A stretch of DNA of 34,737 nucleotides, taken from a virus. Positions 1,459 through 34,737 of the stretch are shown here, piece by piece; positions within the stretch are counted from its first letter, which is position 1; every line of letters starts with the position of its first letter. The notes beneath the pieces were generated by a model. The model saw nothing but the letters and a program-made list of their open reading frames with translations, did not search any database and was not told the origin of the DNA. The stretch lies in the IMG/VR virus record IMGVR_UViG_3300046170_000080, positions 1-34,737 of that record; one strand, given 5' to 3'. Both the position numbers and the translations under genes were made by a program.

Positions 1459-1474
1459 TGTCAAACCCTCGTTA

Positions 1475-1519
1475 GTGAATCAGTGAAGGATACTCAGCGA
1501 ATACCCTTCAGTGATTCAC
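1475..1519. promoter_or_regulatory. imperfect inverted repeat upstream of the leftward block
   Basis: Arms 1475-1489 and 1505-1519 pair at 14 of 15 positions around a 15-base loop; the arms begin GTGAATC and end GATTCAC. It lies 17-61 bases upstream of the first leftward start codon. In RNA it would form a stable leader hairpin; as DNA it could be an operator. No U-tract follows in either direction that would make it a normal terminator. Confidence 0.5.
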
Positions 1520-2086
1520 CCTCTGCCGTAGCTTTAACGTTGCGCGTTGTTGTTGCTCCGGATTGTCTGCCCATTGCTGACACGCTGTGACTCGCTACGG
1601 TTTGGGTGAGTCGGTCTGCTTCCGTGTGTTTGGGTGTTTGTCGTAGTTCGTTTACGAGCCTTCGGATACCCTCCAGCTACATACGCCCACGCTACAACTA
1701 CTTACCCTCTGCGAGGCCCATCGTTAAAAACCCACTGATGGCGTGGTCGGTCTCTTACTTTCATAAGTCTCCACCAGCTCTCACGAGGTATCCCGCGAGG
1801 TGGCTTTGATGCCAGTTAGTTCTGATAGGGTTGCGCCTAGCGGGATTGTGGCTCCCCGTCGCCATGTCAATAACTTTAGGTGAAGGCTTTGGGAATGTCT
1901 AATATTAGTTTTGAATATTGTTTTCAAAAACCATTCACGAGATGAATAACGCTATCGGTCAAGTATGTATAAAGGAACGCGCACGCGTCTAACATGGTAA
2001 CGATATAGATGCAATACTGTTAATGCGTACAGTGTCTAGGTTGTCCTGTAGTGGTCCTACCTAGACTCTCACACTCCCCCTTGTCA
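1520..2086. other. long non-coding stretch, no convincing gene
   Basis: About 570 bases between the leader hairpin and the iterons. The half nearest the leftward genes (about 1520-1870) is visibly richer in G+C than the rest of the control region, so several frames stay open by chance on both strands. None has a good start with a ribosome binding site and a protein-like composition. Tiny leftward frames exist (1865-1761, then 1764-1702 with GGTGGAG upstream, then 1604-1494) but I cannot support them. On present evidence it is a long untranslated leader or part of the origin. Confidence 0.4.
1899..1927 (-). promoter_or_regulatory. weak candidate leftward sigma70 promoter
   Basis: Read leftward, TTGAAA (1927-1922) and TATTAG (1904-1899) are 17 bases apart. 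The -10 lies in a perfect 10-bp palindrome CTAATATTAG (1899-1908), and the adjoining TTTTGAA/TTCAAAA arms form another dyad. It points toward the leftward block but is over 400 bases from its first gene. No stronger leftward promoter was found by eye. Confidence 0.3.
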
Positions 2087-2145
2087 GTTCTATTATGGAA
2101 CTGAGTAGGTTCTATTTTGGTACTTAGTAGGTTCTATTATGGAAC
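2087..2145. repeat. three iterons with exact 22-bp spacing
   Basis: Fifteen-base cores begin at 2087, 2109 and 2131. The first and third are identical (GTTCTATTATGGAAC) and the middle one differs at two bases. Each core is an imperfect palindrome (GTTC...GAAC), and the first two are followed by a shared TTAG/TGAG-TAG spacer. A period of 22 bp is two helical turns, placing all copies on one face of the DNA, as for binding sites of a replication initiator or a dimeric repressor. They sit directly beside three DnaA boxes. Confidence 0.8.
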
Positions 2146-2148
2146 TGC

Positions 2149-2192
2149 TGTGGATAAGTCTGTGGATAACTCTGTTGAAAAGCTGTGGATAA
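2149..2192. promoter_or_regulatory. cluster of three perfect DnaA boxes
   Basis: TGTGGATAA occurs at 2149-2157, 2161-2169 and 2184-2192, all in the same orientation. Its complement TTATCCACA matches the bacterial DnaA box consensus TTATNCACA exactly. The cluster begins 4 bases after the last iteron and is followed by a G-rich tract (2194-2211) and an AT-rich region. This is the arrangement of bacterial and plasmid origins, and implies host DnaA may be recruited. Confidence 0.8.
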
Positions 2193-2411
2193 CTGGGGCG
2201 GGGAGGGGGAGATGCTGACAACTTTTCTGTATGTTGCTACCCAGACACAAAAAAGAGTCAAATTAGACCCTAAAATAACCCCTAGTTATCTAACAAGAAA
2301 CAATATATAAATCAATAACATAAGCAGCTCAGAATCTGGACCGTGCTGGTACAGTTTAAAGGACGTTGTCAAGTCTTTTATAAATATATTATTTTTTTTT
2401 CAACAAAGGTA
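2193..2411. other. G-rich tract then AT-rich region, candidate origin unwinding element
   Basis: Bases 2194-2211 hold three G runs separated by single bases. From about 2260 onward the sequence turns strongly A+T-rich, with runs such as AATATATAAATC and a long T run ending at 2400. Next to DnaA boxes this is what a DNA unwinding element looks like. No gene is visible. The assignment depends on the neighbouring boxes. Confidence 0.45.
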
Positions 2412-2449
2412 TTGCTTTTTGTTCGTTTTTATGATATACTATTAGTATA
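2412..2449 (+). promoter_or_regulatory. rightward sigma70 promoter with palindromic operator on the -10
   Basis: The -35 TTGCTT (2412-2417) and -10 TATACT (2435-2440) are separated by 17 bases. The -10 is the left arm of the near-perfect palindrome TATACTATTAGTATA (2435-2449). The 19-base block ATGATATACTATTAGTATA recurs exactly at a second promoter (7905-7923), so the palindrome is probably a shared regulatory site. It should drive the rightward block beginning at 2577. Confidence 0.75.
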
Positions 2450-2576
2450 GACTTAGAAATTACTCTTTAAAGATTCTTTACCGCGCCGTATAAGATAAAT
2501 TATTATAAGATAATTATTAAATGTATAACTTATAAGGCTTACAAGAATCTTATAAGAGTCTTTAAAGAGGGCTTTT
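2450..2576 (+). promoter_or_regulatory. structured leader of the rightward block
   Basis: About 125 bases separate the promoter from the first gene. The palindrome TCTTTAAAGA occurs twice (2464-2473 and 2559-2568), next to complementary AAGAATCTT/AAGATTCTT and repeated TTATAAG elements. The leader can fold so that the second copy, which contains the AAAGAGG ribosome binding site (2564-2570), pairs with the first. Sequestration of the ribosome binding site is a plausible control of late translation, not demonstrated. Confidence 0.45.
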
Positions 2577-7648: not shown

Positions 7649-7889
7649 AGGCGGTCTTAAGAAATGGTTTGACGAAGAATGGGTTGACGTTAAAACTGGC
7701 AAGAAATGTGGTCGTAAGTCTGCTAAAAATAGTAAACGTCCGTACCCTTCCTGTAGACCTAAAGCTGTTGCAGCTAAGATGACTGCAGCAGAAAAAAAGT
7801 CATCAGCTAAACGCAAAACAGGACCAGCTAAAATTAAACACGCAGTCACAGCTTCAGGACGTAGAAGAAAGACTACAAAAAAAGCTTGA
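7641..7889 (+). CDS. DUF5872-like C-terminal half, small basic protein (82 aa)
   Basis: The start ATG at 7641 lies inside the last codons of the previous gene. The product begins GGLKKWFDEEWVDV, then has CGRKSAKNSKRPYPSCRP, with two Cys residues, and ends in a long Lys/Arg tail. The first part resembles the second half of DUF5872. Strong positive charge suggests binding to DNA, possibly inside the head. The 3' end runs into a perfect promoter at 7886. Confidence 0.6.
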   Translation: MAKGGLKKWFDEEWVDVKTGKKCGRKSAKNSKRPYPSCRPKAVAAKMTAAEKKSSAKRKTGPAKIKHAVTASGRRRKTTKKA

Positions 7890-7923
7890 CACCAAACAAA
7901 AAACATGATATACTATTAGTATA
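7886..7923 (+). promoter_or_regulatory. consensus sigma70 promoter with the same palindromic operator
   Basis: TTGACA (7886-7891) and TATACT (7909-7914) are 17 bases apart, a perfect -35 and a 5/6 -10 match. The -10 begins TATACTATTAGTATA (7909-7923), the palindrome also present at the 2435-2449 promoter. The -35 overlaps the 3' end of the preceding gene. It should boost expression of the scaffold and capsid genes. Confidence 0.85.
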
Positions 7924-8200: not shown

Positions 8201-8411
8201 GATATATGACTTTCGTTGTACTAACGGACATGTCTTTGAAGATTTTGTAAAGAGTGGTACTACAACCAGTAGGTGCGGTTGCGGTGCTAACGCTACAAAA
8301 ATGGTATCTGCCCCGTCTTTCCACCTTGAAGGTGCTTCCGGAGATTTTCCCGGTAGTCACATGAAGTGGGTTAGGGAACACGAAAAAGCAGGTAAAAAAT
8401 CCTCTCCATAA
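8193..8411 (+). CDS. FmdB-like zinc-ribbon protein (72 aa)
   Basis: The protein has a short zinc-ribbon: YDFRCTNGHVFED (Cys and His knuckle) near residues 5-17 and RCGCGANATKM (CxC knuckle) near 27-37. This matches the FmdB-type putative regulatory zinc-ribbon. A C-terminal LEGASGDFPGSHMKW segment recalls phage relatives of this family. The likely role is metal-dependent binding in the head or regulation; this is not established. It sits between the internal promoter and the scaffold gene. Confidence 0.7.
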   Translation: MFKIYDFRCTNGHVFEDFVKSGTTTSRCGCGANATKMVSAPSFHLEGASGDFPGSHMKWVREHEKAGKKSSP

Positions 8412-8423
8412 TGATTATAATCA
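8412..8423. promoter_or_regulatory. 12-bp perfect palindrome before the scaffold gene
   Basis: TGATTATAATCA is a perfect palindrome located between the zinc-ribbon stop and the scaffold ribosome binding site (GGAG at 8425-8428). It could be an operator or simply AT-rich spacer. Confidence 0.25.
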
Positions 8424-8435
8424 CGGAGTTTAATT

Positions 8436-9236
8436 ATGTCAAGAGCTATGATGCTTGATCCACAACCTGAAGAGGACAATGTGGACGCCATTGAAAACGA
8501 AGTAGATGAGATTCAACAAGAAGAAGAAGTTGAGCAACCTCAAGCCGAAGAACAAAGTTTACCCGATAAGTACCAAGGTAAGTCTTTAGAAGAAGTAGTA
8601 CAGATGCACCAAGAAGCTGAGAAGCTTTTAGGTCGTCAGTCTTCTGAAGTAGGCGAACTTCGTAGGGTAGTTGATGATTATATTTCTAGTCAACAACAAC
8701 CAACAGCACCTCAACAACAACACGTTGAGCCTGAAGACGATATAGACTATTTTACAGATCCTCAAGGTGCAGTCAATCGTGCTATTGAGAATCACCCTAA
8801 GATTAGAGAAGCGCAGCAGTACACTGAGCAGTACAAGAAGCAGTCGTCACTTGCCACCCTTCAAGCTAAACATCCAGATATGCAAGACATTCTTAGTGAC
8901 CCTAAGTTTGCAGAATGGATTAAGGCATCTAAGATTAGGACTCAGTTGTTTGTAGCGGCTGACCAACAGTATGATGCTGACTCTGCTGATGAACTGTTTT
9001 CACTCTGGAAAGAACGTAAGACAGTTGCTCAGCAAACCGCCAATGTTGAAAAACAGGCACGTAAGCAATCACTAAAGGCAGCTAATACAGGCAATGCACG
9101 AGGCAGTGCTGAGGGATCACGTAAGAAGGTATATCGCAGGGCCGACATTATTAAACTAATGAAGAATGACCCTGACCGTTATCAAGCTTTATCAGAAGAA
9201 ATTATGACAGCTTATGCGGAGGGTCGAGTCAAATAA
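8436..9236 (+). CDS. scaffolding protein
   Basis: The 266-residue protein is highly charged and helical: an acidic N-terminus (NEVDEIQQEEEVEQP), a Gln/Pro-rich linker, and a basic C-terminal region (ARKQSLKAANTGNARG...RRADIIKLMKNDPDRY). It sits immediately upstream of the major capsid gene. This is the usual form and place of a podovirus scaffold, which guides coat assembly and then leaves the head. No enzyme motif is visible. GGAG lies 7 bases before the ATG. Confidence 0.8.
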   Translation: MSRAMMLDPQPEEDNVDAIENEVDEIQQEEEVEQPQAEEQSLPDKYQGKSLEEVVQMHQEAEKLLGRQSSEVGELRRVVDDYISSQQQPTAPQQQHVEPEDDIDYFTDPQGAVNRAIENHPKIREAQQYTEQYKKQSSLATLQAKHPDMQDILSDPKFAEWIKASKIRTQLFVAADQQYDADSADELFSLWKERKTVAQQTANVEKQARKQSLKAANTGNARGSAEGSRKKVYRRADIIKLMKNDPDRYQALSEEIMTAYAEGRVK

Positions 9237-28686: not shown

Positions 28687-30339
28687 CTAGTGAGTTTCAG
28701 CCCAGTTGTTGCCTACTCTATATTCGCCGTCTAAGGGACACCGTAGGCTGAGTGTCTCACCGGCGATTCTGATTGCACGTACACCTATACGACCAACTGT
28801 GTCAGCGTAGTGGGCAGTCGTTTCTATCTGCCATTCATCGTGTACGTTCGCTACAAATCTATGTGGTATGTTCTTCAATCTATCTGACAAGTGTACCAGA
28901 GCTTGCTTCATAACGATAGCCCCTGCACCCTGCAGTAACGTATTCAAAGCGGCGTGTTCTGATCTGACTCTGAGCTTTCGTCCGTCGAGTCCAGTAAGTA
29001 TGCCTGATGCAGCCTGCCTGAGAGTGTCTCCTCTAACTCTTTCAAGAGACGGCGTGTTAGATAGAAATGTTTCTTTAAGTCCTCGTCCAGTATTGCTATT
29101 TCCTCCAACGATAGCTCCGATCTTAGCATCTCCGGCTCCATACAGAAACGCATAAATGAATGTCTTTGCAAGAGGCCGACTCTCAAGTCCTGCTGCTCGC
29201 TGATTAGCCGTATGAATATCGCCATTGAGTAATTCATTAGTGTAATTCTCATCGTCCATGTAGTGAGCTAACATACGAAGCTCTAGTCCGCTGGCGTCAA
29301 TACCAACAAGAACATTACCCTCATCCACTGTCCAACATGAACGGCACTCAGTCCCGAACGGAGCAGATACGGCGGGTACTTGCGCCATGTTAGGTGACTG
29401 GTGTGTCATACGTCCTGTCACAGCTCCGTTGGTAATGACTCTACCATGTACCCTACCATCATCCTTAACTGCTTTCAACCATGAATCTATCTGTGCCACT
29501 CGTTTCTGTAACATCATGTAACGTGCGACTGCTTTAGCTTCTGGAAGATCTATACCCTCAAGCACCTTCTCATCAACGATGATGTTTCCCTTCTCTGTCT
29601 TCTTGTTAAACTTAACGCCAAGACCTTGCAGACGCTCTGCTATCTGCTTACGTGAGCCGGGATTGAACACTGTTACCTTATCCTTCAGACGCTTAAATGT
29701 CTTCTCAGAGATACGCTCTTCAACGATAGGTGGAAAAATATCTTGTAGGCTCGCTTCAATGTTGTTCATCTCAAACATCAAATCCATCATCAGCTTCTCA
29801 GCAAACGGTATGTCTAACTTAAAACCGTTACGTTCCTGCTCAGTCACGATCCAACCTACGTTATGCTCAAGCTCAACAGACTGCTGCGAGAATCCTTCTT
29901 TGCGTATCTGCAACGCAAGCCATTGATGTACACGCTCAGTCAGCTCAACGTCAGCGATACAGTACTCGACCATCTCGTCAGTCAGTCCTCCGTCGTAGTC
30001 CTCGAATGCAATCTTTCCAGCTCCTCCAAGAATCTCTCCCCAGTTTCGCAGGGAATGACCGCCCTCTTGACTGGGGTTGTAGAGTCTTGAGAGGTAGAGT
30101 GTGTCCACAACGCTATGCCTAGGGATGCGTACACCCCAAACACTATCAAGAACGTGACAGTCAAATCCGATGAGATTATGCCCCACAATCTGTTGCGCAT
30201 CATGTAACACCTTCTTCAGTGTGTCGGGTGTGGTGTGTACTTGTATATCGTTCTTCACCTTCGTAACTGCACACCAGATCGTTGAGTGATCCAAAGTAGT
30301 TTCTATATCCAAGTAGCAGGTATTCATGATACGTCTCAT
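28687..30339 (-). CDS. DNA polymerase, family A (T7 gp5-like)
   Basis: The protein carries a 3'-5' exonuclease (CYLDIETT near residues 8-15, GHNLIGFDCH near 53-62, YCIADVELT near 126-134) and a family A polymerase domain: motif A DASGLELRML, motif B with KTFIYAFLYGAG, and motif C VHDEW. At 550 residues it is shorter than T7 polymerase (about 700). No clear thioredoxin-binding insertion was seen, but I could not align it. Either ATG at 30339 or at 30327 could start it; neither has a strong ribosome binding site. It replicates the genome with the helicase-primase. Confidence 0.93.
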   Translation of the reverse strand: MRRIMNTCYLDIETTLDHSTIWCAVTKVKNDIQVHTTPDTLKKVLHDAQQIVGHNLIGFDCHVLDSVWGVRIPRHSVVDTLYLSRLYNPSQEGGHSLRNWGEILGGAGKIAFEDYDGGLTDEMVEYCIADVELTERVHQWLALQIRKEGFSQQSVELEHNVGWIVTEQERNGFKLDIPFAEKLMMDLMFEMNNIEASLQDIFPPIVEERISEKTFKRLKDKVTVFNPGSRKQIAERLQGLGVKFNKKTEKGNIIVDEKVLEGIDLPEAKAVARYMMLQKRVAQIDSWLKAVKDDGRVHGRVITNGAVTGRMTHQSPNMAQVPAVSAPFGTECRSCWTVDEGNVLVGIDASGLELRMLAHYMDDENYTNELLNGDIHTANQRAAGLESRPLAKTFIYAFLYGAGDAKIGAIVGGNSNTGRGLKETFLSNTPSLERVRGDTLRQAASGILTGLDGRKLRVRSEHAALNTLLQGAGAIVMKQALVHLSDRLKNIPHRFVANVHDEWQIETTAHYADTVGRIGVRAIRIAGETLSLRCPLDGEYRVGNNWAETH

Positions 30340-31078: not shown

Positions 31079-31248
31079 TCATCCTCCGGTTCTGCTAAAA
31101 CTATACGAACATCTTTATACATATAAGGATCAATACCTATAGTAGCGGCTTCACACCGGCGGTAACTCCCTTTAAGAATAACTTGAGGTATAAAAACACC
31201 ATCACACGCATACATATCACCAATTAAAGTGTATTCAAGATCACTCAT
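31075..31248 (-). CDS. small hypothetical protein (57 aa)
   Basis: A 57-codon frame fits exactly between the helicase-primase and the nuclease-like gene, with ATGA overlaps at both ends (31248-31245 and 31078-31075). The product has alternating hydrophobic residues (YTLIGDMYACDGVFIPQVIL), suggesting beta strands. No family is recognised. Perfect coupling at both ends is the main evidence. Confidence 0.7.
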   Translation of the reverse strand: MSDLEYTLIGDMYACDGVFIPQVILKGSYRRCEAATIGIDPYMYKDVRIVLAEPEDE

Positions 31249-32864
31249 AGCGGTTTCTCCTCACGTTCATCACGTTGTGTTAGTCGTCCTGTTGCTTCAT
31301 TGTAGAATACTTCACACGCCTTGCCGGTCTTTCCGGTGTACCTGTTCTTCAACACCCGCAGCACGGTCGTGTTTCTAACAATGGGATCATCACTCTGGCT
31401 GTTACGTTCAGCACCGATGACCGCATCAGAGAGCTGTGCAATCGACGCAGAGCCACGTAACATACCAAGGCTAGTGACAGCACCGTCCTCCAATTGCTTC
31501 CCTTCAGGGCGTCTCAGGTGGCTCACAAGGAACATACAGATCCCCATCTCCTGCACGAACGTCCTCAGCTTAGTCATGATCATATCCAAAGCACGTCGCT
31601 CATCACCGTTGCTCTGGTCAGACACGAGTATTGAGACGTGATCGAGTACGATATAACGTACGCCTAGTACCTTAACGAAGTATCTCATGCGGCCCAGTAC
31701 GTTTTCTATCTCGTTACTGCCGAAGTGTTCCCAGAGATAGACACGGTTCTCATAGTCCATCGTATCGTACACTAGATCAATGTCGGTGTCGTCATACTCA
31801 CAGTCAGGTAGGTGGATAGGTTTGTTCAGCTCAAGACCTACCAGTCCTCGCATGGTACGCTCAGGTGTCTCCTCAAGAAACATCAAGCCAAGGTTATCTT
31901 CTGACTGCGCCATGATAGAACTGACTATCTCACGCAGAAGCGTAGACTTACCCAGTCCAGAGCCTGCACAAATAGTAACCAGCTCAGCAGTGCGTATGCC
32001 GTACAGGTGTTTGTTCAGCCCCTCGAACGGGTACTGTACCTTCGCCTTGGTCAGTGGCTTCTTGATCAGATCACGTAGCTCACCAGCACCAACGATCCCT
32101 TCAGGTGTGTAGGGTTGAGCAGACCAGAATGCTTTGGTGTACGCATCAGCTTGATTGTTAACAAGGTAATCACACGCATCTTTGTAGCCGTTGACGTGCT
32201 TAACAATCCTCGCTTTGTTACCGAACAGATCAGCACATTCCTTTGACGCTCTCTGTCCCGGCTCGTCAGCGTCGAAACAAATAACAATGTTCTCGAAGCT
32301 GTTCAGCCAATCATAAAAAAGGCGACAGTCCTTTGCCGCCGACGTTGCACCGTTACGGACACTGACAACGGGATACATACTACCTGTCATTTGATGAGCT
32401 GCTAACGCATCGTACTCACCTTCAACGATAGTCACATACTTACCACCTTCAGGGAACAAGTGCTGTCCATACAAGCCTGCTTGCTTCCAGTCACCAATGA
32501 TACTGAACCGCTTGTCAGGGTTGCGTACCTTGGCAGCTATGGGTTTTGTTGGATCATCAGGGTTGTAATAACCAAAGGTTGTAACGTCACCCTGCTTGAG
32601 TGCTGCGTACTTCTTCGCCGTCGATCCTGTAATTAAACGGTCAGTTATTGAACGGTACTCCGCTGTGATTAACCGATGTTCTGTCTGGCTAAACGATGGC
32701 TTCGGTGCATCGCTGATAGAACCTAGCTCTCGCACGTTGTCAACCTTCGCCGCTGGTGTGTACGTATCACAGACAAAACACTTACTTGAACCGTCATCGT
32801 TGTACGCTAACCCGTCACTGCTGTCACAGTCAGGACATGGTTTATGTGTCTCAGTGAATGCCAT
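31245..32864 (-). CDS. helicase-primase (T7 gp4-like)
   Basis: The ATG at 32864 is preferred over an upstream TTG at 32900 because GGAG precedes it. The 539-residue protein starts with a zinc-binding primase domain (HKPCPDCDSSDG...KCFVC), then a TOPRIM fold (IVEGEYDALAAHQ and CFDADEPGQRA), then a RecA-like hexameric helicase with Walker A GSGLGKST and Walker B YIVLDHVSIL. It unwinds DNA and makes primers. The length is close to T7 gp4 (566 residues). Confidence 0.94.
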   Translation of the reverse strand: MAFTETHKPCPDCDSSDGLAYNDDGSSKCFVCDTYTPAAKVDNVRELGSISDAPKPSFSQTEHRLITAEYRSITDRLITGSTAKKYAALKQGDVTTFGYYNPDDPTKPIAAKVRNPDKRFSIIGDWKQAGLYGQHLFPEGGKYVTIVEGEYDALAAHQMTGSMYPVVSVRNGATSAAKDCRLFYDWLNSFENIVICFDADEPGQRASKECADLFGNKARIVKHVNGYKDACDYLVNNQADAYTKAFWSAQPYTPEGIVGAGELRDLIKKPLTKAKVQYPFEGLNKHLYGIRTAELVTICAGSGLGKSTLLREIVSSIMAQSEDNLGLMFLEETPERTMRGLVGLELNKPIHLPDCEYDDTDIDLVYDTMDYENRVYLWEHFGSNEIENVLGRMRYFVKVLGVRYIVLDHVSILVSDQSNGDERRALDMIMTKLRTFVQEMGICMFLVSHLRRPEGKQLEDGAVTSLGMLRGSASIAQLSDAVIGAERNSQSDDPIVRNTTVLRVLKNRYTGKTGKACEVFYNEATGRLTQRDEREEKPL

Positions 32865-33033
32865 TACGTCCTGCTCCCATGTCAGTGTACAGCTCGTCAA
32901 TCTTTTCGTCGTCCATTGAATCTAACAGGTCAGAGAAAAAGTTACCAGCAATATTCATTGCTTCAATGAGCGTTAACGTCTCCAACTGTCGTTCAACAAG
33001 CTCACTCACTTTCTGTTCTTTAGAGATACTCAT
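32851..33033 (-). CDS. small acidic helical protein (60 aa)
   Basis: An acidic, helical 60-residue product (VSELVERQLETLTLIEAM, DLLDSMDDEKIDEL) encoded just before the helicase-primase, overlapping its start by 14 bases. The ATG has AAGG about 10 bases upstream. About 60 bases of non-coding DNA separate it from the previous gene, the largest gap within the leftward block. Function unknown. Confidence 0.65.
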   Translation of the reverse strand: MSISKEQKVSELVERQLETLTLIEAMNIAGNFFSDLLDSMDDEKIDELYTDMGAGRNGIH

Positions 33034-33287: not shown

Positions 33288-33674
33288 TTACACGTCCTCA
33301 TAAGGCATCTCCTTGTATACATCGCTGTTCTTGACTTTTTCAATTGCTCTGTAAAGTGTCTGTTCTAATATCTCAACATGTCCGTTGTCAACAAAATAAT
33401 CCAGCACGGTCTGAGCTAAATTTAAAGACATGACTCCACGTGAAAAGTTATTAGTGCCTGTATGTAGGGCGTTAACCATAGATGTATCAGCGTAAGGATG
33501 TTCGTAATAATGCTCCGCACACGCCTTAAAGAAAGGATCTAACGCTTCAATAAGATCTTCCCATTGCGGTCTGTCGTGTTTAATACGATACCTGTAGCGA
33601 TACCAACGAGCTGGTTTAGCCCTTGGACTTTCACCCCAGTAGTGTAGTTCTAACCCCATCAGATTATCTTTCAT
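33288..33674 (-). CDS. hypothetical protein (128 aa)
   Basis: A 128-residue leftward gene whose ATG overlaps the previous TGA (ATGA). The N-terminal quarter is rich in Arg and Tyr (RWYRYRYRIK); the rest is helical (FFKACAEHYYEH, SLNLAQTVLDYFV). No known motif, membrane segment or signal peptide was seen. It lies in the small-gene cluster upstream of the replication genes. Confidence 0.7.
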   Translation of the reverse strand: MKDNLMGLELHYWGESPRAKPARWYRYRYRIKHDRPQWEDLIEALDPFFKACAEHYYEHPYADTSMVNALHTGTNNFSRGVMSLNLAQTVLDYFVDNGHVEILEQTLYRAIEKVKNSDVYKEMPYEDV

Positions 33675-33832
33675 AAAACCTCCGTTGTGTGCTTGACAAT
33701 TCTGTAACGCTTACCATTGTCACGTTTAGTTTCTACGTAATACTGCGCTTCGCCTACGTCGTCCGTTGTGAACACTTGCGACCAAACATCGTCGTATAAT
33801 TCAATTACATATAACGTATTCATTCCGATCAT
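33671..33832 (-). CDS. small hypothetical protein (53 aa)
   Basis: The frame starts at ATG 33832, overlapping the upstream TGA (ATGA), or at ATG 33823 (50 residues). It ends overlapping the next gene's ATG (ATGA). The short product is beta-prone (NTLYVIELYDD, AQYYVETKR, KRYRIVKHTT), resembling small single-domain phage proteins of three strands. Function unknown. Confidence 0.65.
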   Translation of the reverse strand: MIGMNTLYVIELYDDVWSQVFTTDDVGEAQYYVETKRDNGKRYRIVKHTTEVL

Positions 33833-34070: not shown

Positions 34071-34157
34071 CTACCGCTCCCTGTCTATTGTCAGCCATGT
34101 CACTATGATGATGCCAGCAAACAGCATCCCGATAAAGTACAGCAAATTAAATTCCAT
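34071..34157 (-). CDS. tiny single-pass membrane protein (28 aa)
   Basis: ATG at 34157 follows AGGAG by about 6 bases. Residues 3-23 are hydrophobic (FNLLYFIGMLFAGIIIVTWL), then TIDRER and a TAG two bases before the next gene. It overlaps the sigma-like gene by 11 bases. One membrane helix with a short charged tail is typical of phage microproteins that act on host membranes; the role is unknown. Confidence 0.55.
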   Translation of the reverse strand: MEFNLLYFIGMLFAGIIIVTWLTIDRER

Positions 34158-34320
34158 CCTTCGCTCCTATGTATTTGTCTAGTTTACCTGTTCGCCTAAG
34201 TTTCGCAATAGCCCTACTCTCGATGCGTTTAACATCTGTTTCGGTTATGCCTAGCACCTGCGCTATCTCTCGTTGCGACATAAGGTAGTCTACTTTCCTG
34301 CCTTCCCTTGTCTTGCTCAT
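34147..34320 (-). CDS. sigma-70 region 4-like small DNA-binding protein (57 aa)
   Basis: A 57-residue frame from ATG at 34320 to TAA at 34149-34147. Residues 14-44 read SQREIAQVLGI, TETDVKRIES, RAIAKLRR: the helix-turn-helix of sigma70 region 4, where the second helix reads the -35 element and the RIES...AIAKLRR part parallels QIEAKALRKLR of RpoD. No regions 2 or 3 are present, so it cannot be a full sigma factor. As the phage lacks an RNA polymerase but has sigma70-type promoters, the protein could redirect host RNA polymerase or act as an activator or anti-sigma mimic. The fold is by pattern only. Confidence 0.65.
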   Translation of the reverse strand: MSKTREGRKVDYLMSQREIAQVLGITETDVKRIESRAIAKLRRTGKLDKYIGAKDGI

Positions 34321-34328
34321 AGATTCCC

Positions 34329-34556
34329 TTAACGTAATTTGATAAAGCAGAACGAATCGTCATCCACCCTATACAAACTGTAACGTCCTTTGAGATATGT
34401 ATTCGCTGCCGCATTTGTTTTGACCTTATCTTCTTCAGGTATAGAGAACCAGTCATTTTGTTTCATAGACTCGAACAAATCTCTCCACTTGCTCCCTCGA
34501 TTGCGGAAGTTTACAGGCGCTGGTGCTTTCTTTGATTGAACTTTGTAGTGCTTCAT
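34329..34556 (-). CDS. small conserved phage protein (75 aa)
   Basis: AAGGAAG lies 7 bases before the ATG. The central pattern SKWRDLFESMKQNDWFSIPEE...GRYSLYRVDDD resembles a group of short phage proteins with WRDLFxSMxxxDWF and GRYSLYR segments that I have seen in many phages (possibly DUF7303; from memory). The basic N-terminus and Trp/Phe-rich core suggest nucleic-acid or RNA-polymerase contact, but nothing is established. It precedes the sigma-like gene by 8 bases. Confidence 0.65.
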   Translation of the reverse strand: MKHYKVQSKKAPAPVNFRNRGSKWRDLFESMKQNDWFSIPEEDKVKTNAAANTYLKGRYSLYRVDDDSFCFIKLR

Positions 34557-34575: not shown

Positions 34576-34737
34576 TTAAAGTTGATTGCGGAGTAACCGC
34601 CGTTGTCGTGCTAGTTCTTTGGTGCGTCTGTTATAGCGTGCTTTGCGCTGTCGTCGCCGTCTCGCTCGTGGATCTGTCCAGCGCTGGTGTAGGTAACAAA
34701 GGCCAGCCCAAACTGGCACAAAGCTAAACAATACAAG
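34576..34737 (-). CDS. 3' part of 61-aa membrane protein joined across the contig ends
   Basis: Joined to bases 24-1, this gives a 61-residue protein. Residues 5-24 are hydrophobic (LIDILVLFSFVPVWAGLCYL), followed by an extremely Arg-rich tail (DPRARRRRQRKARYNRR) and the stop TAA at 34578-34576. One inner-membrane helix with a cationic cytoplasmic tail could bind nucleic acid or acidic lipid. The function is unknown. It is followed by the gene at 34556 after about 20 bases. Confidence 0.75.
   Translation of the reverse strand, partial: LVLFSFVPVWAGLCYLHQRWTDPRARRRRQRKARYNRRTKELARQRRLLRNQL

Follow-up and report, generated by a model that had tools for sequence, protein, structure and literature searches.

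We identify a 57-residue protein of a marine phage, encoded on the minus strand of the window (the whole 34,737-nucleotide stretch of viral DNA analysed here). It resembles the C-terminal helices H3, H4 and H5 of a primary sigma factor, with H1/H2 missing. The gene is real, well conserved and under purifying selection, and across sister phages it looks optional or accessory, a gene that they can dispense with. Reading from sequence, and with somewhat better than even confidence, we propose that it encodes an accessory DNA-binding regulator of the early operon, derived from a sigma C-terminus and having a specificity other than the -35 element. The original prediction saw in this gene an isolated sigma region 4 domain in a phage with no RNA polymerase, and from the gene, together with host-type promoters, it suggested that the phage takes over transcription by altering promoter recognition. 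Our data uphold the kinship to region 4 and the lack of a phage RNA polymerase, and they do not support the takeover.

Sigma kinship of the 57-residue protein

The gene lies in the leftward early/replication operon, upstream of the primase-helicase, an order that is kept in the relatives that carry it. The features of this operon that bear on the analysis are:

34147..34320, minus strand: gene of a stand-alone sigma region 4.2-like protein, 57 aa, ATG start; translation MSKTREGRKVDYLMSQREIAQVLGITETDVKRIESRAIAKLRRTGKLDKYIGAKDGI
34326..34330, minus strand: ribosome-binding site AAGGG of the 57-aa gene, read from the sequence; overlaps the end of the upstream gene
34329..34556, minus strand: 75-aa gene of no known family, directly upstream of the 57-aa gene in the same operon
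34576..34731, minus strand: 51-aa gene that in most sister phages bounds the variable slot on its upstream side
33671..33832, minus strand: 53-aa gene, the downstream border of the variable slot
31245..32900, minus strand: primase-helicase (Toprim + DnaB_C), further down this leftward operon; the presence/absence survey was anchored on it
28687..30339, minus strand: DNA polymerase of family A; at 50.6%, HTVC104P and HTVC103P are its nearest isolates

The AAGGG stands 5 nt upstream of the ATG. The reading frame is open on the minus strand, and stops interrupt it on the plus strand across 34147-34320. Relatives of the protein in IMG/VR number 29, with identities of 59-98%, and the dN/dS of the gene core is ~0.07-0.25 in most comparisons, which indicates that the protein is under selection.

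The predicted open reading frame is exact, and its product matches Pfam Sigma70_r4 (PF04545) with an E of 1.7e-8 and 34.3 bits, against a curated gathering cut-off of 24.1 bits. Because the match spans only positions 21-49 of the 50 in the profile, the region 4.2 helix-turn-helix (HTH) is present and region 4.1 is absent; 13 residues precede the HTH. The same family is matched at E 0.1 or better by all members of the protein family examined (15/15), including its three versions, and above the cut-off in four sigma4-bearing records and five further records; within the window genome it is found once. No other sigma family was matched among the early and replication genes scanned in the window, and region 2 is absent. 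We considered whether a misplaced start codon hides an N-terminal sigma region 2, 3 or 4.1, and this is ruled out by stops close upstream: in the window and 29 relatives the in-frame extension runs for a few to ~18 codons. With 57 residues and one domain, the protein is neither a core-binding factor of the sigma70 family, for which region 2 would be needed, nor a complete sigma region 4, which comprises H1/H2 of 4.1 as well as 4.2. The claim that no other sigma regions accompany the HTH is borne out.

Profile comparison, proposed at the outset as a check, gives primary sigma factors as the best relatives of the family among solved structures. A profile of all three versions, searched against the PDB, has sigmaA (4g6d_A, E 1e-5) as its best match, followed mostly by other primary sigma factors (SigA/RpoD), and the alignment continues into H5, where RSGKLdrF stands against RSKRLKDF and RSEKLRDFL. 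The H5-like motif, L-x-[RK]-[FY]-[LIV]-x-A-K, is retained in all three versions. Direct BLASTP of the window protein against region 4 of E. coli sigma70 gave no match, so the kinship rests on profiles. Sigma region 4 structures also head the Foldseek and VIA-align results, weakly (Foldseek E 0.4; Z < 4), and these fold matches count only as agreement with the profiles. AlphaFold models the window protein with moderate confidence, at a pLDDT of ~77 and a pTM of 0.54, the tail being near 50; the predicted helices are 16-23 and 27-44 for the HTH and 47-51 (47-55 in a second model) for the H5-like tail.

The likeness to region 4 of SigA/RpoD thus comprises the 4.2 HTH, the E..A..KLR helix pattern and the H5-like tail; unlike a primary sigma factor, the protein has only 57 residues, no region 4.1 and no regions 1-3, and its -35-reading residues are replaced. 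Small phage proteins such as A0A6J5N2N3 (54 aa), A0A6J5KJE7 (67 aa) and A0A6J5LCA9 (62 aa) share its size class, fold and stand-alone state, a likeness by predicted fold only (E 0.1-1.2); a viral structure library annotates them as 'RNA polymerase sigma-70 region 4' or 'Sigma70_r4 domain containing protein'. Our literature search on stand-alone region 4 proteins of phages found no functional study, and such proteins are already known by annotation and uncharacterised. Isolated phages gave no close match to the window family, only weak and partial ones, and the family was not found in the ten reference phages searched. The sole match in the genome collections, in a Planctomycetota MAG, was set aside: it is a full-length primary sigma factor found through a common IESRAIAK stretch, which makes the comparison a biased one.

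RNA polymerase, sister phages and promoters

The window record is classed as linear, yet its end and start form one uninterrupted stretch in the relative L001. Positions 1 and 34737 are therefore adjacent, and the window is essentially a complete circular map. No T7-type RNA polymerase (PF00940) was found in it or in 12 sister records, the T7 control being positive at E 1e-109; adjacency of the ends in L001 rules out, for the window, that a polymerase was missed because the contig is a fragment. The window lacks the single-subunit RNA polymerase gene that marks T7-type phage transcription (Autographiviridae), as predicted. Its replication set is T7-like (primase-helicase, family A polymerase, 5'-3' exonuclease and endonuclease I), and its portal bears a remote likeness to that of HMO-2011-type phages. 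Together with the marine podoviruses HTVC103P, HTVC104P and HTVC115P, the HMO-2011-type phages have a related DNA polymerase, a remotely related portal and no T7-type RNA polymerase; three records of this group were searched, and they hold neither a Sigma70_r4 match nor a homologue of the window protein.

A survey of sister phages, anchored on the primase-helicase and not on the sigma-like gene, fetched 80 loci, of which we counted the 26 that take in both the structural leader gene and the helicase and so hold the whole early region. The sigma-like gene is absent from 15/26 and present in 11/26. Four carriers have version A (the window type), two have version B (LTRSEVQQAETRGLQKLKR) and five have version C (LHRITVQKIERDALKKLKE); the versions differ in the recognition helix and occupy one genomic slot, which in the sisters without the gene is filled by unrelated small genes. 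In one sister record, of 37,662 bases, a Sigma70_r4 protein and an RNA polymerase are both missing.

The survey was set against the promoters of the rightward genes:

1465..2576, no strand: non-coding region from which the leftward early operon and the rightward structural operon diverge
2412..2440, plus strand: structural-operon promoter TTGCTT-17-TATACT with extended -10 (TGA)
7886..7914, plus strand: TTGACA-17-TATACT with TGA, the other rightward promoter; three relatives conserve it

In most sisters the structural-operon promoter reads TTGACA-17-TACAAT with an extended -10, whether the phage has version A, B, C or none. TTGCTT is seen at this place in the window and in a single further lineage with version A, and a divergent -35 region is common to locus L076 (version C) and locus L113 (none). 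Neither the structural promoter nor the leader palindromes and iterons track the presence or version of the gene. The TCTTTAAAGA palindromes, the iterons and the promoter palindrome were rejected as operators of the protein on the ground of this independence. No carrier-specific k-mer of the early region follows the gene either; the sole version A-specific 10-mer, GTAGTGCTTC, lies where the upstream gene begins and is coding.

Because the promoter does not vary with the presence of the gene, the gene is not required for the structural promoter and is not the general takeover device of the group. The proposed takeover by altered promoter recognition also finds no support in the 15 loci of 26 without the gene, in the 37,662-base sister, in the loss of the -35-reading residues or in the absence of H1/H2 of region 4.1. 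The lack of a phage RNA polymerase and the possession of a sigma-like gene do not together imply sigma-based takeover, since there are sisters that manage with neither.

Reading surface and proposed role

In sigma70 the -35 element is read by R584, E585 and Q589 (PMC8407463), and a longer list of contacts is available (PMC4943231). The window protein has E27, T28 and R32 as equivalents of these three residues and D29 and K31 as those of R586 and R588; version B alone keeps the R584- and Q589-equivalent residues. R554 and R562 of region 4.1, which also contact the -35 region, are missing from the window protein. Among family members, the positions at which sigma70 contacts -35 DNA have a mean entropy of 1.31, and the remaining positions one of 0.70 (p 0.002 in a one-sided rank test uncorrected for phylogeny). 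The residues Y12, M14, Q16, G24, V30, E34, K40, L41, G45, K46, L47, A53 and K54 never vary. Regulators that have diverged in DNA specificity would be expected to keep their scaffold and change their reading surface, as seen here, and the invariant tail suggests a fixed partner, possibly a second copy of the protein or RNA polymerase. When isolated from the rest of E. coli sigma70, region 4 has no ordered structure in water (PMC4236625). The phage 4.2 unit is smaller, and by this analogy it probably becomes folded when it meets a partner or DNA.

We propose that the leftward early/replication operon makes a small regulator with H3 and H4 of the primary-sigma type, an H5-like tail and no core-binding region. 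Its HTH would bind a DNA site distinct from the TTGACA element. A 4.2 unit alone has little hydrophobic core, so the protein would probably bind as a dimer or together with a partner. Once bound, the regulator would repress or tune a promoter, whether of the phage, the host or a competing phage.

Several other accounts were weighed. The protein could be a decoy or remodeller of sigma region 4, its H5-like tail, with the H3 face, docking on the beta-flap and displacing host region 4, so that host RNA polymerase shifts to the extended -10 promoters of the phage; we consider this account unlikely, while docking as such may occur through the retained tail. Sigma contacts the flap in and near H1, H2 and H5, and H5 touches the flap tip (PMC2988021); the H5-like motif, which every version has kept, aligns with primary sigma H5; the rightward promoters at 2412 and 7886 both have an extended -10; and the T4 late co-activator gp33 is a small phage protein able to hold the flap (PMC7892883). 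However, H1/H2 of region 4.1, a main part of the beta-flap contact (PMC2988021), are missing, and four of the six core-binding positions listed in PMC4943231 fall in region 4.1. The invariant tail could equally serve folding or dimerisation. Moreover, phages without the gene have the extended -10 promoter just as well, so a sigma-like gene is unnecessary for it. Like the window protein, gp33 is a small phage protein that could take the place of sigma region 4; it co-activates together with the sliding clamp. It is structurally unrelated to region 4, and by itself it attaches to the flap but not to DNA (PMC7892883), whereas the window protein keeps the DNA-reading half and lacks most of the flap-binding half. 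AsiA and MotA, by which T4 appropriates sigma, are likewise small phage factors, and they act on how host RNA polymerase recognises the -35 element; sigma region 4 is what AsiA binds and remodels (PMC2988021), whereas the window protein itself resembles part of region 4. We hold it to be very unlikely that the H3-H4-H5 fragment grips the beta-flap through H5 and uses its re-specified helix to redirect the polymerase to another upstream element, with three interchangeable specificities among the sisters.

That the HTH competes for TTGACA-like sites and so blocks host promoters is highly improbable: an HTH of the sigma 4.2 type and the R584- and Q589-equivalents of version B would fit, but the window has E27, T28, D29, K31 and R32 in place of R584, E585, R586, R588 and Q589, R554 and R562 are gone with region 4.1, and the phage's own promoter at 7886, with its perfect TTGACA, would be blocked too. 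A DNA-binding role outside transcription, for instance in superinfection or as an aid to packaging or to the replication origin, by a protein that only uses a sigma-4.2-like HTH, strikes us as quite unlikely. The gene does sit in the replication operon, iterons and DnaA boxes occur in the divergent region, and small terminase and DNA-binding proteins are among the weak PHROG matches; yet the iterons and DnaA boxes do not track the presence or version of the gene, and the best named families are transcriptional. For the accessory regulator that we favour, the sister phages offer a natural comparison set, with the same slot, the same scaffold, three recognition helices and relatives without the gene, in which the target of such fragments, be it DNA, RNA polymerase or the two together, can be studied.

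Other elements of the early and structural regions

Perfect copies of TCTTTAAAGA occur at 2464-2473 and 2559-2568 only in the whole genome, both in the structural-operon leader; the two can pair in RNA (z -2.6), and the sequence is found at least once in 27/27 loci compared. The two rightward promoters share an identical block, ATGATATACTATTAGTATA, over the extended -10 (2431-2449 and 7905-7923), and the palindrome ATACTATTAGTAT within this block is found nowhere else in the genome. At 2086-2192, three iterons of the AGTTCTATTATGGAACT type with an exact 22-bp spacing are followed by three DnaA boxes (TTATCCACA, minus strand), and iterons and/or DnaA boxes recur at the matching place in many relatives. 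By its sequence this segment resembles a replication origin of the iteron/DnaA kind, here in a phage that is T7-like.

The first leftward gene (1051-1464, 137 aa) belongs to PHROG 3754, of unknown function (E 1.8e-17), and is fast-evolving, being ~30% identical between sister phages. Just before it, at 1475-1519, lies an inverted repeat with 21-nt arms that are 86% complementary, a sequence present in several relatives. The gene at 8436, which occupies the place of a scaffold gene just before the putative capsid gene, has its ribosome-binding site covered by a CTCC...GGAG hairpin (8404-8442); the hairpin coincides with a perfect leftward TTGACA-17-TATAAT, and three relatives have a promoter-like match there.
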